Positions 2 to 8,667 of a stretch of 33,512 nt of DNA are shown here, piece by piece. Position numbers and translations under genes: made by a program. The notes below the pieces were generated by a model. That model had not been told where the DNA came from. It was given only the letters and a program-made list of their open reading frames with translations, and searched no databases. The first letter of the stretch is position 1; each line of letters begins with the position of its first letter. Source of the stretch: Phycisphaerae bacterium (GTDB lineage: Bacteria; Planctomycetota; Phycisphaerae; Sedimentisphaerales; UBA12454); NCBI GenBank assembly GCA_026386845.1, contig JAPLMW010000024.1:1-33512 (forward strand), read 5' to 3'.

Positions 2-307
2 CTTACAGAAGGTCTGGTTGACGGACTCTTCAGGCTTATTAAGCATGAGCTTATGCAGGAGTCGATGCTGCTTGCCTTGAAGTTCAGGCCTGTAGTAATG
101 AGAATGTATCAGAAATACGACTATCACGAATACGGCGGGGCGCTGTTGCTGGGCGTAAATGGAACTGCCGTTATTTGCCATGGTGCCAGTAAGAGCAGAA
201 CAATTAAGAATGCTGTTCTGGCCTCTCGAAAGTTTCATAGTCAGAACATTAACGAAAAAATAAAAGAATACCTGTCCACTACAACTGTTAAAATCGCTGA
301 TGAGTAG
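2..307 (+). CDS. plsX: Phosphate acyltransferase PlsX, C-terminal fragment
   Basis: The reading frame is open from the first bases of the window, so the gene begins upstream and only about the last 101 residues are seen. They match the PlsX C-terminus, with the run EYGGALLLGVNG followed by a conserved HGAS motif. PlsX makes acyl-phosphate from acyl-ACP for phospholipid synthesis. The stop codon overlaps the fabH start by 8 nt (fabH ATG at 300), and plsX-fabH is a very common bacterial gene pair. An internal ATG at 53 is not the real start. The identification rests on the C-terminal motif and on gene order. Confidence 0.9.
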   Translation, partial: LTEGLVDGLFRLIKHELMQESMLLALKFRPVVMRMYQKYDYHEYGGALLLGVNGTAVICHGASKSRTIKNAVLASRKFHSQNINEKIKEYLSTTTVKIADE

Positions 308-1316
308 TATGAATACAAATTCGACTTGTGCTTTCAGGGCTGTCATCGCTGGCACTGGAAGCTGCGTACCTGAAAAACAGCTTACAAATGAAGACCTCAC
401 GAAAATGGTTGACACCAATGATGAGTGGATAACAACACGGACAGGCATAAAAGTCCGGCATATAGCCGCCGAAAATCAGACAACCGCGTCTCTGGCGACA
501 GAGGCCGCAAAAAAAGCGCTTCAGCAGGCCAAGGTATCTCCTGAAGATGTCGAAATGATTATCGTTGCGACGATAACCCCTGAAATGGTCTTTCCCGCGA
601 CTGCCTGTTTTGTTCAGGAACAGCTTGGAGCGAAAAAAGCCTGGGCGTTCGATATCTCCGCCGCCTGCAGCGGGTTTGTTTATGCGTTAAGTATTGCTCA
701 GCATTTTGTGATAAGCGGCAAATATGACAATGTCCTCGTTATCGGCGCCGAGACCATTAGTAAAATTACGAACTACAAGGATAGAACAAGCTGCATCCTT
801 TTCGGCGACGGTGCAGGCGCCGCTGTGGTAAAAAGAGCCGGCCTTAACGGTTCAAAAGGAATTTTTTATAGCACTTGCGGCTCTGATGGTTCAGGCTGGC
901 CTGCCATTCATTGTCCGGCTTACGGCAGCAGGCACCCGGCCGATAAGCCGCTCGAAAATCCCAATCAGGTCTATTTGCAGATTAGCGGCAGGGAGGTTTA
1001 TCAGCTCGCAGTGCGGAAAATTATTGAAACTGTTGAAGACTGCCTGGCAAATTGCAAATTAACAATAAACGATATAGATTTATTTATCCCTCACCAGATG
1101 AACGCCCGGATTATCGAATCCGTTGCCAAGAGGCTCGAGCTTTCCGATGAGAAGGTATTTATAAATATTGATAAGTATGGCAACACTTCAGCCGCCTCGA
1201 TTCCAATTGCTCTTGATGAGTGTCTCAGGCAGGGCAGGATTAAGAAGGGCGATATTGTTCTGCTGGTCGCCTTCGGCGGCGGCCTCACCTGGGGTGCTAA
1301 CGTAATTGAATTTTAA
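300..1316 (+). CDS. fabH: Beta-ketoacyl-ACP synthase III (FabH)
   Basis: FabH condenses acetyl-CoA with malonyl-ACP and so starts type II fatty-acid synthesis in the cytoplasm. The 338-residue product is full length. The catalytic triad is visible: Cys123 in AACSGF, His265 in IPHQMNARI and Asn295 in YGNTSAAS. The C-terminal GGGLTWGA motif is intact, as is the N-terminal DEWITTRTGI motif of the CoA site. The start at 300 overlaps plsX; a second ATG at 309 is a possible alternative start. The next fatty-acid gene, fabD, would normally follow closely but here lies 3.5 kb downstream, beyond an insertion. Confidence 0.97.
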   Translation: MSSMNTNSTCAFRAVIAGTGSCVPEKQLTNEDLTKMVDTNDEWITTRTGIKVRHIAAENQTTASLATEAAKKALQQAKVSPEDVEMIIVATITPEMVFPATACFVQEQLGAKKAWAFDISAACSGFVYALSIAQHFVISGKYDNVLVIGAETISKITNYKDRTSCILFGDGAGAAVVKRAGLNGSKGIFYSTCGSDGSGWPAIHCPAYGSRHPADKPLENPNQVYLQISGREVYQLAVRKIIETVEDCLANCKLTINDIDLFIPHQMNARIIESVAKRLELSDEKVFINIDKYGNTSAASIPIALDECLRQGRIKKGDIVLLVAFGGGLTWGANVIEF

Positions 1317-1341: not shown

Positions 1342-4056
1342 TCACATAGATTTTATTAATTTTACATAATCGCTGGTTTCAGTTTCTTTAATCAAAGACT
1401 TATCTATAATAGCCAGATTTGCTCTTACCTTCCAGCTTTTATCCTCAGCGATTTTTCTTAGCTCGGCTTCATTCCACTTATAATTTATTTTTCTAAGCTG
1501 CCAGACACACCACGCCCGCAGGTTTTCATTGTCGCTTTGCAATAATCCCTTGATAAGCATGTCTGTTGCATCGGGCGTTAAATAATGCTCAATGCCTAAA
1601 TCTTTCGGACGTATAAAGTTGCCGGATGTTCTTAAAATTAAACTTAACATTCTTTCTGCTGTCCCATTATCCAGATATAATCCTCCGGAGTCGTGTAAAA
1701 AATATAATGAACTATGTTTCGCATCATTATCTGTCTTGTCGAATTCGTTTTCTGCTTTATCAAAATACAAATTCATAATCTTCAAAATGGTGTTCTTTGA
1801 TAATGTGCAGATATTTTTATATTCGAAGCGGATCTTCTCTATGGTATGAGTCTCAAAATGTTTTTTGAACAGGGCGTATGTTTCATCAGGCTCGGATATT
1901 GCAGCTAATGCAGAAATTAATTCAGATACTCTCGGTTTTTCTGGATTGTATCTTTCTTCGATTTCGTTCGGTTCATTTTCTGCCTTTATTGCTTCATTTA
2001 ACGCGGCTGTTAATTTATATTTTACCTTTTTATCGCCCAATTGAGCCCTCGCAATCAATGCCCAACTGTTATCTGGATTGTCCATATATTTGATTATGAC
2101 AGGCACCTGGTCCTTCCCGGCATTTTTTAACATAGAACAGATACTCATATCTGTTAATGTGTAATAGTCCTTATCAAAAGGCGAGCGAAGACCAGCCGAA
2201 TTATAGAGATATAAAAATTTACGATTCTTTAAATTTTGCATAACTTGCGGTAAGTCCGCGGTTTTAACTAATTGAATATATCTTGGAATATTTTGCATGG
2301 GTAAATTTACATCATCAATTTTCTTTAATATATCCTTATATACCTTTTCATAATCCGAAACAGTTAAATAGGTATAAGATTTATATTCTTCTGCTTTTTC
2401 TCCCATGGATTTTTTTACTGGATACGTTAAAAGCAATAAGCCCAGCCAGCACAGAATAGCCGCAATAACCGACTGCTTAACTAAATTCGCCCGTAAGGCA
2501 GCGATTTCATTTTCACAGGTTCCGGCAAATGTTTTAAAAATATTTTTAAATGAAACATTATTGAAAGAATATTTAAAAGCAAATAATATGAAAATTATGA
2601 TAGGAAGATATTTAAGATACGTATGCCCCTGGAGAAACATTGTGATAATCCCAAGTGGTATTGAAATCATTATTCCGCAGATAAATCTGGTAACCCAGTT
2701 GTCGAATTTAGGTTTAAAAAATTTAATAATGCTTATACCTAAAACAATCCCTATGGGAAGGACAAATGGGAATAAAAAATATGGTTCTTTTAGAAAATAT
2801 ATTATGTCTTCAAAATCGGGATAATCGAACCTGAATAGTATCGGCGGGAAAAGGAATGCATCCGCATAACTATAATGACTGCAAGAACATAAGTCGTCCC
2901 CGAAAAATTCAACTAAAATAGGTGCTTGACCGGCAAGGAAATAAACGAATCCATAAATAAAAAATCGGATGGCACTAAACTTATTGATTTTAATGTTGTA
3001 AATATCTTTACAGAAAAATGAGAAAATAAAAAGAACCGCTGTTATCAATATAAATACGGTTGTCATTCTAACAAAAAACATAAAAGGCAATACGGCTATA
3101 ACATAAAATTCTGTTTTTTCATTTAGACCATAGTGTTTATAGATTGCTTTGACTTTCTTTTCAGGGTTAGCTGTTGCGCACATTTCTAATCTTTTTCGGT
3201 CAGCCTCTGTTTGAGTCAGATTTTTCCGCTGCAGTTCAACTTCCTGTGGCAGGGTCCAGTAGCCGAACCCTCCTCCAAAACCATAAAGCTGTTCTGTACG
3301 AATCGAATGCTGCAAATAAGATTCGCCCATACTGTCTTTTAACATACTTTTGAGTAGATTTGATATCTCATCGGCCTTGGTGAAATCTCGTTCTGTAATC
3401 AATAGGTTTTGATATTTTATTAAGACATTATAGATATCCCTGGTATAAAAATTATCAGGATGGGAATAATTTAATTCTTCTATTAAGCGGAAATGCAAAC
3501 GCTGTTTTTGGGCCAATGATAAAACCCTATCTCGGTATATCGAATATGGTTCTTCATTGTATTCGCATTTGTTGGCTTGTTTGATTGTTTCTATTGCCTC
3601 ATCAAAATTGTTGCCCTTCCTATCCCGTAATAGCGCAAAAGCCTTCATATAATAATAATTTGAATTTTTCCCATCTAACTCAATGAGCCTGTTTGACAGT
3701 TTAAGCAAGATAGCAGGGTCGAGTCCTCCGTCATGCAAATAACATAAAGTACTTATTGCAAATTCATAAAGAAAATATTGATTTTCTGGAAACTTTTGGA
3801 TGTTTGCAGATAATATTTTTATGAGTTGATTGTCGTCCCGTGATAAAAAATACTGATAATTCAGTTTATAATTTGCTATTGCGGCGGCCTCTGGATCATT
3901 TTCTGCGATTTTTTCTTTTATGGCTGGTGTTTTTGTGACCAAACGTGATTTTGTGTAGCAAAAACTTTTATGTAAACTCCAATATTCATCCCAGATAATT
4001 TTCAGGTTATCTTTTTGCCAAAAAGAAAGACAGATGCAGACTATAAGGCTTGACAA
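1342..4056 (-). CDS. Unrecognised large membrane protein, TPR-like N-terminus and HEAT-like C-terminus
   Basis: I do not recognise this family. The 904-residue product begins with a hydrophobic anchor, followed by about 300 soluble residues with TPR-like helical pairs (roughly residues 55-240). A block of about six membrane segments follows (roughly 317-349, 362-385, 425-447, 455-476, 480-498 and 527-547). The tail of about 350 soluble residues has HEAT-repeat-like helices near its end (LLQSDNENLRAWCVWQLRK). The TTG at 4056 has no ribosome-binding site. An ATT at 4086 preceded by GGAG at 8 nt spacing would add KNRRQFSILL, giving a proper positively charged signal anchor, so the true start may be 4086. 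The gene faces against the fab operon, is more AT-rich than its neighbours, and looks like inserted material. Confidence 0.75.
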   Translation of the reverse strand: MSSLIVCICLSFWQKDNLKIIWDEYWSLHKSFCYTKSRLVTKTPAIKEKIAENDPEAAAIANYKLNYQYFLSRDDNQLIKILSANIQKFPENQYFLYEFAISTLCYLHDGGLDPAILLKLSNRLIELDGKNSNYYYMKAFALLRDRKGNNFDEAIETIKQANKCEYNEEPYSIYRDRVLSLAQKQRLHFRLIEELNYSHPDNFYTRDIYNVLIKYQNLLITERDFTKADEISNLLKSMLKDSMGESYLQHSIRTEQLYGFGGGFGYWTLPQEVELQRKNLTQTEADRKRLEMCATANPEKKVKAIYKHYGLNEKTEFYVIAVLPFMFFVRMTTVFILITAVLFIFSFFCKDIYNIKINKFSAIRFFIYGFVYFLAGQAPILVEFFGDDLCSCSHYSYADAFLFPPILFRFDYPDFEDIIYFLKEPYFLFPFVLPIGIVLGISIIKFFKPKFDNWVTRFICGIMISIPLGIITMFLQGHTYLKYLPIIIFILFAFKYSFNNVSFKNIFKTFAGTCENEIAALRANLVKQSVIAAILCWLGLLLLTYPVKKSMGEKAEEYKSYTYLTVSDYEKVYKDILKKIDDVNLPMQNIPRYIQLVKTADLPQVMQNLKNRKFLYLYNSAGLRSPFDKDYYTLTDMSICSMLKNAGKDQVPVIIKYMDNPDNSWALIARAQLGDKKVKYKLTAALNEAIKAENEPNEIEERYNPEKPRVSELISALAAISEPDETYALFKKHFETHTIEKIRFEYKNICTLSKNTILKIMNLYFDKAENEFDKTDNDAKHSSLYFLHDSGGLYLDNGTAERMLSLILRTSGNFIRPKDLGIEHYLTPDATDMLIKGLLQSDNENLRAWCVWQLRKINYKWNEAELRKIAEDKSWKVRANLAIIDKSLIKETETSDYVKLIKSM

Positions 4057-4149: not shown

Positions 4150-4342
4150 GAAAATTGTAGAAATTGGGACAATGGCTTTGTTGCTCTCGATTAAACAGCT
4201 AAAAAGTTGGATTTTTTTGATGGAAATTGGGCTAAAAGTATGGTATTAAATGAAATATTGAAAAATTAAGACAAAAGGCGAAAAGTAAAATAGTATATTT
4301 ATTCGTTTTTAATTCTTAGTGTCGGAGTTTACCCCGTGAGAT

Positions 4343-4835
4343 GGTATTGGTAACGTATGGAACAAAAAAAATACAGCAGTTTTAATGATTTAGAGGTTTA
4401 TCGTAATACTTTTCAGGCTGCTGTTATAGTTATTCAAAAAATACTTCCTAAATTGCCGAAGGAAGAAAAATTTGATTTGGATAATCAGTTGCGCCGTTCT
4501 GCAAAGGCAGTTCCTCGTCTTATTGCGGAAGCGTATTCCAAAAGATACCAGAACAAGGGGTATCAAAGTTTATTAGATACAGCAACGCAAGAAAGTAATG
4601 AAACAATTGTTTCTCTAAGTCAGGCAAGAGATATTTACGGTGTAGATAAAGAAAATTGCACTAAATTGATTGATCTGTATGATAAATCGTCTCGCCAGAT
4701 TCAAAGACTAAGTTTGGCTTGGGCTGCGTTTGTTCCAAGAAAAACTAAATGTGATGTATCTGAATAGATTCGAAATGGTATCGCCGACAACTATAACCGA
4801 TTACCGATACACAAGACGTTACCGATACCAATACC
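4343..4835. mobile_element. Possible mobile cassette: four-helix-bundle gene between inverted repeats
   Basis: GGTATTGGTAACGT at 4343-4356 abuts the start codon of the four-helix-bundle gene. Its reverse complement recurs at 4816-4835, except that an extra GATACC unit has been inserted into the downstream copy. A second inverted pair, TGGTATCG (4776-4783) and CGATACCA (4823-4830), lies in the 3' flank. The 3' flank also carries four copies of ACCGAT (from 4797, 4803, 4821 and 4833). No transposase is present, so movement, if any, would need a helper in trans. Mobility is inferred from structure only. Confidence 0.45.
4357..4767 (+). CDS. Four-helix-bundle protein (S23 / 23S rRNA intervening-sequence type)
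   Basis: This 136-residue protein has the family pattern: an N-terminal SFNDLEVYRNTFQAAVIV helix, then LRRSAKAVPRLIAEAYSKR, then a NETIVSLSQARD-like helix and a final helix ending the bundle. The fold is shared with proteins found in 23S rRNA intervening sequences and with Avd of diversity-generating retroelements. The cellular role is unknown, and no reverse transcriptase or variable repeat is nearby. There is no clear ribosome-binding site before the ATG. Inverted repeats flank the gene, one of them touching the start codon. It sits inside the block that separates fabH from fabD. Confidence 0.85.
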   Translation: MEQKKYSSFNDLEVYRNTFQAAVIVIQKILPKLPKEEKFDLDNQLRRSAKAVPRLIAEAYSKRYQNKGYQSLLDTATQESNETIVSLSQARDIYGVDKENCTKLIDLYDKSSRQIQRLSLAWAAFVPRKTKCDVSE

Positions 4836-4850
4836 GATACCGAAACCAGA
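4768..4850. repeat. Short degenerate CCGATAC tandem repeats
   Basis: The 120 bp between the four-helix-bundle gene and fabD contain repeated ACCGAT(A) units (from 4797, 4803, 4821 and 4833), separated by short variable spacers. They are followed by an AT-rich near-palindrome around 4852-4872. The repeats pair with TGGTATCG at 4776 and with the sequence before the upstream gene. Confidence 0.55.
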
Positions 4851-4887: not shown

Positions 4888-5799
4888 ATGGAAAAGACCT
4901 CTTACATATTTCCCGGCCAGGGCGCTCAGGCAGTCGGTATGGGCAGGGATTTTTACGATGCCGAGCCGCTCGCAAAGCAGATTTTCGACAAAGCAAACGA
5001 AATAATTGGTTTCAATCTTACCCAAATCTGTTTCCAGGGCCCCGAAGATAAACTAAACTCGACGGTTATTTCTCAGCCGGCTATTTTCGTAACTTCAGTC
5101 GCGATTCTCGAAGTCCTGAAATCCAAAAATGCGATTCAGCCTGCTGATGTAACCGCAGGTTTGAGTCTTGGCGAATATACTGCTCTTTACGCCGCTGGTA
5201 TTATTAGTTTTGAAGACGGCCTCAAACTTGTGCAGAAACGAGGGGCATCTATGCAGGCCGCTGCCGATGCTTCAAAAGGTTCTATGGTAAGTATCGTCGG
5301 TCTTGAGCAGACTGCTGTTGAAAAACTTTGTGCCGAAGCCGCTCAGGGACGGATTCTTGTCTGTGCCAATTTCAACTGCCCCGGCCAGATTGTCATTACA
5401 GGCGATATTGGCGCTTGTAAAAGGGCGGTTTCTCTGTCTGAAAAATATGGAGCAATCAAAGCGATTGAGCTGAAAGTAGCAGGCGCCTTTCATTCGGAAA
5501 TGATGAAACCCGCCGCTGATGAGCTTAAAAAAGCCCTCGCTCAATGCAAAATTAATAATATAGGAAATATATCCGTTATTGCAAATGTGGACGCCGAATA
5601 TTATAAAACTAAAGAGCAAATTTCTAATGGGCTTGTCAGGCAGCTTACCGGCGCCGTTTTGTGGCAGAAGTGTATGGAAAAACTTTTAGCTGATGGCGTT
5701 AATAAATTTTATGAAATCGGCCCGAACAAAGTTTTGACCGGCCTTATGCGAAGGATTAACCGCAAGGCCGAAATTACAAATATCAGTTCTATCGGTTAG
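4888..5799 (+). CDS. fabD: Malonyl-CoA:ACP transacylase (FabD)
   Basis: FabD moves the malonyl group from CoA to ACP, feeding fatty-acid elongation. The 303-residue product shows the N-terminal FPGQGAQ motif, the nucleophile Ser93 in GLSLGEY, Arg118 in QKRGA and the catalytic His202 in GAFHSEMM, so all active-site residues are present. An AAGG lies about 10 nt before the ATG. The gene is separated from fabH by the 3.5 kb inserted block. It must therefore be transcribed from a promoter within or after that block, but I see no strong one. A 9-bp hairpin follows the stop codon, before fabG. Confidence 0.96.
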   Translation: MEKTSYIFPGQGAQAVGMGRDFYDAEPLAKQIFDKANEIIGFNLTQICFQGPEDKLNSTVISQPAIFVTSVAILEVLKSKNAIQPADVTAGLSLGEYTALYAAGIISFEDGLKLVQKRGASMQAAADASKGSMVSIVGLEQTAVEKLCAEAAQGRILVCANFNCPGQIVITGDIGACKRAVSLSEKYGAIKAIELKVAGAFHSEMMKPAADELKKALAQCKINNIGNISVIANVDAEYYKTKEQISNGLVRQLTGAVLWQKCMEKLLADGVNKFYEIGPNKVLTGLMRRINRKAEITNISSIG

Positions 5800-8256: not shown

Positions 8257-8667
8257 TTAATTTTTCCGGGGCTTACCTTCTTTTTTGTCCATCATCGGAC
8301 AACCGGCTTTATTGGGTTCTGACAAACCGGCGGCTCTTTTAGAACATATTGGGCAAGTACAGCCTGGTTTGCATTTTCCCATGTCAGCCTTATGTCCGAA
8401 CCAGCCCTTTTGTTCGCCGTAAACTTTCTTTCCTTCCTGGAACTTATGTTCAAAACTGCCTTCATATTCCCTGTAATCTCTGTCCCTGCAGACTTCTCTG
8501 CCGTAGCCGCCGCCGCATGGCCCTCTCATATGGCAGCAATTATGCATCATGGTCATTTTATGGCCGAATACCGCCCCTATCGCCATAAATGCGATTGCGA
8601 TAAGAATCGCTTTCCAGCTTTGGCAGCAGCAGCTTTGACTATCATGTTTCTTTTCGTTTTCACTCAT
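8257..8667 (-). CDS. Cys-rich membrane-anchored protein, possibly metal-binding
   Basis: I do not recognise the family. The 136-residue product has a short N-terminal tail with three adjacent cysteines (13-15), one membrane segment (about 19-36) and a His/Cys/Met-rich stretch just after it (HKMTMMHNCCHM). A charged middle follows, and then a C-terminal knot CKPGCTCPICS (99-109) and GCPMM (122-126). There are twelve cysteines in all. The pattern suggests metal or thiol chemistry, but this is inference. The start is well supported: GGAG lies 7 nt before the ATG on the minus strand. It is transcribed convergently with the fab operon. Confidence 0.75.
   Translation of the reverse strand: MSENEKKHDSQSCCCQSWKAILIAIAFMAIGAVFGHKMTMMHNCCHMRGPCGGGYGREVCRDRDYREYEGSFEHKFQEGKKVYGEQKGWFGHKADMGKCKPGCTCPICSKRAAGLSEPNKAGCPMMDKKEGKPRKN

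Follow-up and report, generated by a model that had tools for sequence, protein, structure and literature searches.

S23 (PF05635) proteins occur across many phyla, where a single genome often has from several to over ten of them. To our knowledge no function has been assigned to them since the rRNA intervening sequences were described more than 25 years ago. The closest described system is the intervening sequence of the 23S rRNA gene that carries an S23p ORF, as in Leptospira, Coxiella and Brucella. In the Coxiella intervening sequence, tandem heptamers lie upstream of the S23 ORF, some strains have one unit fewer in the array, S23p is seemingly not made in vivo and is decaying, and the element is excised by RNase III (PMC4990558). 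When the Coxiella heptamers are written out as described, five AG dinucleotides appear at a 7-nt spacing, the adjacency of the parts being assumed. Ralph and McClelland, as cited in PMC4990558, have proposed that the ORF of the intervening sequence serves mobility. Dispersed arrays of 7-nt units have also been described in Xanthomonas and Nostoc, where the GGGAATC arrays are mostly intergenic and include, in Xanthomonas, 70 convergent inverted pairs with a preference for four full units (PMC4692102), and in Beggiatoaceae, where the unit is TAACTGA (PMC4679880).

The window analysed here, a 33,512-nt stretch of DNA from a Phycisphaerae bacterium (contig JAPLMW010000024.1), contains an S23 gene (23S_rRNA_IVP; 4357..4767, plus strand) outside any rRNA gene, with fabH (300..1316, plus strand) as the upstream and fabD (4888..5799, plus strand) as the downstream flank of its insertion site. 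The sequence-only reading of this locus had seen a four-helix-bundle gene of the rRNA intervening sequence family, an inverted copy of the bases before the ATG beyond the stop codon and additional ACCGAT units in the 3' flank, and all three observations held. The 136-residue product belongs to a divergent subfamily and matches PF05635 over residues 11-116 (E 7e-18, 65.2 bits against a curated cut-off of 33.8) and TIGR02436 (E 6e-15, score 55.5 against a cut-off of 24); in Azospirillum an S23 gene lies inside 23S rRNA, as described below. The bases TGGTATTGGTAACGT (4342-4356), which abut the ATG at 4357, match the inverted ACGTTACCGATACCA (4816-4830) at 14 of 15 positions, and this inverted copy begins 48 nt past the stop codon. 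The short 5' arm (4342..4356, plus strand) consists of two GGT units with a 6-nt spacing (GGTATTGGTAACGT). The 3' arm (4816..4847, minus strand) has exactly five GGT units at the same spacing, read in inverse orientation as GGTTTC, GGTATC, GGTATT, GGTATC and GGTAAC, and two outlying ACCGAT units are located in the interval between the gene and this arm (4796..4809, minus strand). In total, ACC[GA]A[TA] units start at 4796, 4803, 4821, 4827, 4833 and 4839. The inverted match of the window is weak when taken alone, being equalled in 165 of 2000 dinucleotide shuffles and at 14 of 301 genes of the same genome. Judged by itself, the repeat was dismissed as not significant by shuffles and is convincing through the family only; it gains significance because the flanks of the S23 family show a locus-specific inverted match.

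In 12 of 12 same-family relatives fabH directly adjoins fabD with no S23 gene in between, and the insertion in the window is therefore lineage-specific, in a comparison that is not base-precise because the same gap has also gained an ORF of 904 aa in the window lineage. This ORF (1342-4056, minus strand), which lies between fabH and the S23 gene and gives weak HEAT and TPR matches, is itself missing from the junction in 12 of 12 of these relatives and represents a second lineage-specific insertion there. Homologues of the window protein with 55-60% identity (L307-L310) occupy other genomic places and have GGTTACG or GGTTGCG motifs upstream, and an inverted 3' copy is clear in L308 only. Searches against Pfam and NCBIfam revealed no transposase or nuclease motif in the window element, the sole gene of which matches S23 families alone. 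The idea of a transposase-free minimal mobile unit fits, with the correction that the window copy itself is an atypical S23 cassette member, in which a 5' arm of two units and a 3' arm of five are built from a unit of 6 nt. It has probably been partly eroded or domesticated.

Whether the same inverted ends recur around homologous genes was a question that the first reading had left to related genomes; repeats do flank these genes family-wide, with the unit following the protein subfamily. There are 13 PF05635 genes in the 2.4-Mb genome from which the window comes, and at nearly all of them short units stand in tandem upstream and return in inverse orientation downstream, the unit differing from locus to locus; contig ends truncate two of the 13 copies, and the pattern is weaker at a few loci. 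Over 39 S23 loci of this genome and its relatives, the mean inverted-match score of the flanks is 17.7, compared with 10.0 when arms are paired across loci and 10.4 for 288 other genes, the control genes being drawn from about 345 kb of the same genome and the window. Because of this difference, the pairing of S23 arms is locus-specific rather than a mere consequence of low complexity. S23 genes show this inverted-array layout in at least 12 phyla, counted from named records. In 107 of 118 S23 loci the repeat period that fits best is 7 or 8, whereas 298 control genes are spread over all lags; the 118 loci combine those of Planctomycetes with those from a scan of genome contigs, which was queried with a single S23 protein, so that its 80 loci represent one subfamily. 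A search of phage records for this subfamily gave no match. The 5' array mostly ends a few to a few tens of nucleotides before the S23 start codon. The defined ends that had been proposed from the window alone are not one fixed sequence: the ends of an S23 cassette are an array architecture with about five short units per arm and a locus-specific sequence. In two genera of Planctomycetes (L030 and L034), S23 cassettes with different repeat units lie between two tRNA genes, apparently at the same position in both.

A second gene family with cassette-like ends is GxxExxY (TIGR04256), which has a nuclease fold (PDDEXK_3 nuclease-like). Six GxxExxY genes are present in the same genome. At L061:1408-1779, which is on C66 of this genome, and in L156-L185, inverted arrays of units of about 9 nt (CACGAAGGA, CAGATTAAC and CACAGAGGA) lie on both sides of such genes. 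In the window, a small cysteine-rich ORF with no Pfam match (8257-8667, minus strand) is flanked by imperfect inverted ACCACGGATTGCGCGGATGACGCGGATT and AATCAGCGTAATCAGCG units similar to the GxxExxY type. A general preference of inverted arrays for five units was ruled out by this family, in which the layout is the same and there is no five-unit mode.

The arms of S23 cassettes do have such a mode. When the longest AG run at the best period is counted in each arm, five is the commonest value in Planctomycetes (20 of 78 arms), outside Flavobacteriaceae (22 of 76), in Flavobacteriaceae (48 of 82) and at one Flavobacterium site (52 of 74), and in all four sets the number of arms drops sharply from five AG to six. 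The pattern was discovered by inspection in the same kind of data that was later used for counting; the more independent checks are the Planctomycete set, the Azospirillum insert and the unselected fifth AG of arms that had been picked for four CWRAG cores at an 8-nt spacing. In these arms the slot that precedes the first core, which was not selected, is AG in 96% of the 5' arms and 100% of the 3' arms, and the slot after the last core lacks AG. The layout of a CWRAG arm is accordingly AG-N6-AG-N6-AG-N6-AG-N6-AG, each of the four linkers containing C[AT][AG]. The crystal structures of PF05635 proteins, 2rld and 2gsc, contain five chains each and are homopentamers, and XCC0516 is a homopentameric toroid according to Lin 2006 as cited in PMC4990558. 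Because five units per arm meet five chains per structure, one repeat per subunit is a natural inference, and the S23 pentamer would read the arm in this manner.

The link between protein and unit is most clearly seen in Flavobacterium, where 121 species were surveyed and the junction upstream of the conserved MINLFNTHIET gene was read in about 88. Type I S23 proteins, defined by at least 75% identity to L216, are paired with CAAAG or CAGAG units in both arms in 15 of 15 cases, and type II proteins (58-74% identity) with CTAAG or CTGAG (CTRAG) units in 21 of 21, so that protein type and repeat type agree in 36 of 36. At the same junction, both arms of a distant type III are made of GTTTAA units. 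The S23 types are interspersed on a tree of the flanking gene, with at least 11 changes, and the match between type and unit holds in seven of seven independent pairs (p=0.016). In L229 and L235 the flanking genes are 99.3% and 97% identical, and the cassettes differ in the gene and both arms together. The S23 gene and its two arms thus act as one unit and are swapped together at a site; homologous recombination through the flanking genes could be an alternative route for this exchange. Arm similarity also tracks protein similarity in Planctomycetes (Mantel r 0.22, 9/2000). The same Flavobacterium junction is a hot spot that carries in L246, L250, L257, L261 and L266 another inserted element, which is gene-less, measures about 150-210 nt and is bounded by CCTCTCCAAAGGAGAGGG palindromes, and in L251, L256, L258, L267, L268, L272, L243 and L269 gene-less inverted CAAGAGCCAAGATNAAAGAC arrays, which are probably the ends of a further subtype.

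Empty sites, the existence of which had been raised as a question for related genomes, are present in Aquimarina, Flavobacterium and the rRNA copies of Azospirillum as well as between fabH and fabD. Site B of Aquimarina is clean in L118, filled in L119, occupied by the arms only in L132 and by a truncated gene in L147, and at site B of Flavobacterium the junctions of several species are only 24-31 nt long. No target-site duplication was found in these comparisons. In Azospirillum lipoferum 4B, an S23 gene lies within a 23S rRNA gene (Rfam RF02541) on an insert of 473 nt, which has five heptamers per arm and takes the place of a 19-nt loop. The rRNA copies on two other replicons of this strain lack the insert, and by BLAST the shared flanks are 100% identical, the two empty stretches not being letter-for-letter identical to each other over their full length. 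Because the insert carries both an S23 gene and five-heptamer arms, the classic rRNA intervening sequence is one of these cassettes.

Arrays of the same kind are abundant without a gene. The exact five-AG pattern has 60-270 copies per genome in many Flavobacterium species, most of them located away from any S23 gene, and the reversed pattern has few or none in most Flavobacterium genomes. Among the matches listed for one genome, arrays within 250 bp of each other form 12 convergent pairs against 4 pairs in other orientations, and the convergent layout is that of S23 gene flanks. In gene-less examples, a terminator or a short loop has five units to its left and five to its right. The argF'-argB junction is a clean 11-nt gap in about ten species and is occupied in others by a gene-less element of about 100 nt, the arms of which are both of the CAAAG type or both of the CTAAG type; in one genome (L359, G244) an insert of about 750 nt with an apparent small gene is found where relatives have the element of about 100 nt. 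Eight or more arrays on both strands are present in 31 of 43 genomes with a cognate S23 gene and in 3 of 78 without; the genomes behind this excess group together on the tree, and it does not reach significance when independent pairs are compared. Genomes with a type II protein have the higher share of CTRAG arrays (0.69 against 0.49, p 0.007, uncorrected for kinship). Some genomes have arrays without a cognate S23 gene (G225), and others have an S23 gene with few arrays.

What was observed, namely the architecture, the mode of five units, the pairing of cognate protein and unit, the exchange of cassettes, the empty sites and the gene-less copies, is probably explained in full by a family of small mobile S23 cassettes with inverted arms, the ends of which would be bound by pentamers; the reading of S23 genes as mobile cassettes with cognate ends is strongly supported. 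A cassette consists of one S23 gene between two inverted arms of short units, most often five to an arm, each unit, usually of 7 or 8 nt and of 6 nt in the window, being composed of a conserved core of 2-5 nt and a loose spacer. In the proposed mechanism, a ring of five identical S23 subunits would bind one arm, with each subunit taking one unit. On the inverted arms, two such rings would mark the ends of complete cassettes and gene-less miniatures or join them, leading to their transposition. Pfam and NCBIfam give S23 neither a nuclease nor a polymerase domain, and cutting and copying would therefore have to be supplied by host enzymes. In transcripts the arms can also pair as a stem, which in the rRNA versions is removed by RNase III, as shown for Coxiella (PMC4990558). 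More tentatively, and with slightly less than even confidence, the cassettes may represent an altogether new class of mobile element that carries neither a transposase nor a nuclease nor a polymerase, whose five-unit ends are read by a pentamer ring and whose specificity can switch by coupled change of ring and units. The miniature derivatives of such a class would number in the hundreds, and its scattered members would be the classic rRNA intervening sequences, the heptamer arrays of Xanthomonas and repeats like them.

The pairing of arms in RNA could in principle be the primary function, the transcript folding and RNase III cutting the insert out of rRNA or operon mRNA while S23 is a passenger or a stem-binder. 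Inside 23S rRNA the two Azospirillum arms pair almost perfectly over about 30 bp (z -9.7 for the whole insert), the window transcript closes with a 15-bp stem (z -3.75), and RNase III excision of the Coxiella element is on record (PMC4990558). A stem needs complementarity, however, and at protein-gene loci the likeness of the spacers of the two arms is 0.606 in order and 0.572 when shuffled. With spacers that gain so little likeness from being in order, a simple hairpin in RNA is the weaker account, and a conserved hairpin as the constraint on the arms, once a candidate, was set back to a rival since the spacers are not complementary in order. Pairing also leaves the fixed count of five units unexplained, and many of the sites are simply gaps between genes or elements that lack a gene. 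We consider this account unlikely.

The arrays might instead be independent dispersed repeats, REP- or MITE-like or simple sequences such as the G-quadruplex repeats proposed for Xanthomonas, in or between which S23 genes land. The distance of most Flavobacterium arrays from S23 genes is in keeping with this, as are the published descriptions of heptamer arrays that leave S23 unmentioned (PMC4692102, PMC4679880). However, an S23 gene landing within an array would acquire direct rather than inverted arms, the unit fits the S23 subtype without exception at the Flavobacterium junction, the CTRAG share of a genome follows its S23 type, and most units (AG, GT, CAG) are not G-runs, which together make independent repeats highly improbable. 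The least probable account is autoregulation, in which the pentamer would bind the five-unit array of its own 5' leader, the 3' copy being incidental, and ordinary recombination would spread the gene. The closeness of the 5' array to the S23 start codon in most loci would suit such control, and a precedent exists in TRAP, an 11-mer that reads 11 spaced triplets. Autoregulation nevertheless explains neither why the inverted 3' arm holds five units as strictly as the 5' arm nor why both arms are kept in gene-less elements.

If the mobile-cassette reading is correct, it would unite the rRNA intervening sequences, the dispersed heptamer and octamer arrays and the numerous inverted elements that lack a gene, and a gene would be able to spread without a DNA-cutting enzyme of its own. 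An array of five units that fits a ring of five subunits, and a unit that changes along with the protein type, would give S23 a testable function and a binding code.

Among known systems, the accessory protein Avd of diversity-generating retroelements resembles PF05635 and has a related fold (PMC10053308). In contrast to that system, no reverse transcriptase, template or variable repeat is seen at the window locus, where S23 stands alone between the arms; no reverse transcriptase was recognised on reading through the window ORFs. On two cyanobacterial plasmids (L373 and L374), array-flanked S23 genes lie between cas6 and cas4, and this placement may explain the listing of the S23 family as CRISPR-linked (PMC10910872). 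The heptamer arrays of Xanthomonas and Nostoc (PMC4692102) and of Beggiatoaceae (PMC4679880) look like the same class, which is a lead; they have been published as G-quadruplex or translational regulation with no link to S23. S23 genes are known in X. campestris (XCC0516) and present on Nostoc plasmids. REP sequences with RAYT (TnpA-REP) and MITEs with their transposases share with S23 cassettes a small gene, inverted cognate ends and many gene-less miniatures. However, S23 has no transposase or nuclease motif, and its ends are loose arrays of short units that vary in sequence by subtype. TRAP, the trp RNA-binding attenuation protein, is a ring of identical subunits that recognises spaced short repeats with loose spacers; it works alike but is not a member, having another fold, binding RNA only and lacking an inverted second array. 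For 23S rRNA intervening sequences, the array unit, the subtype link, the five-unit mode and the gene-less relatives appear not to have been described in the open-licence literature, in which no link of S23 to such arrays outside rRNA was found either. These intervening sequences with their S23p ORF have the same protein family, inverted-repeat ends and sporadic occurrence among rRNA copies, and differ in that the window and most loci lie between protein genes. The present data support the mobility idea of Ralph and McClelland and extend it beyond rRNA.
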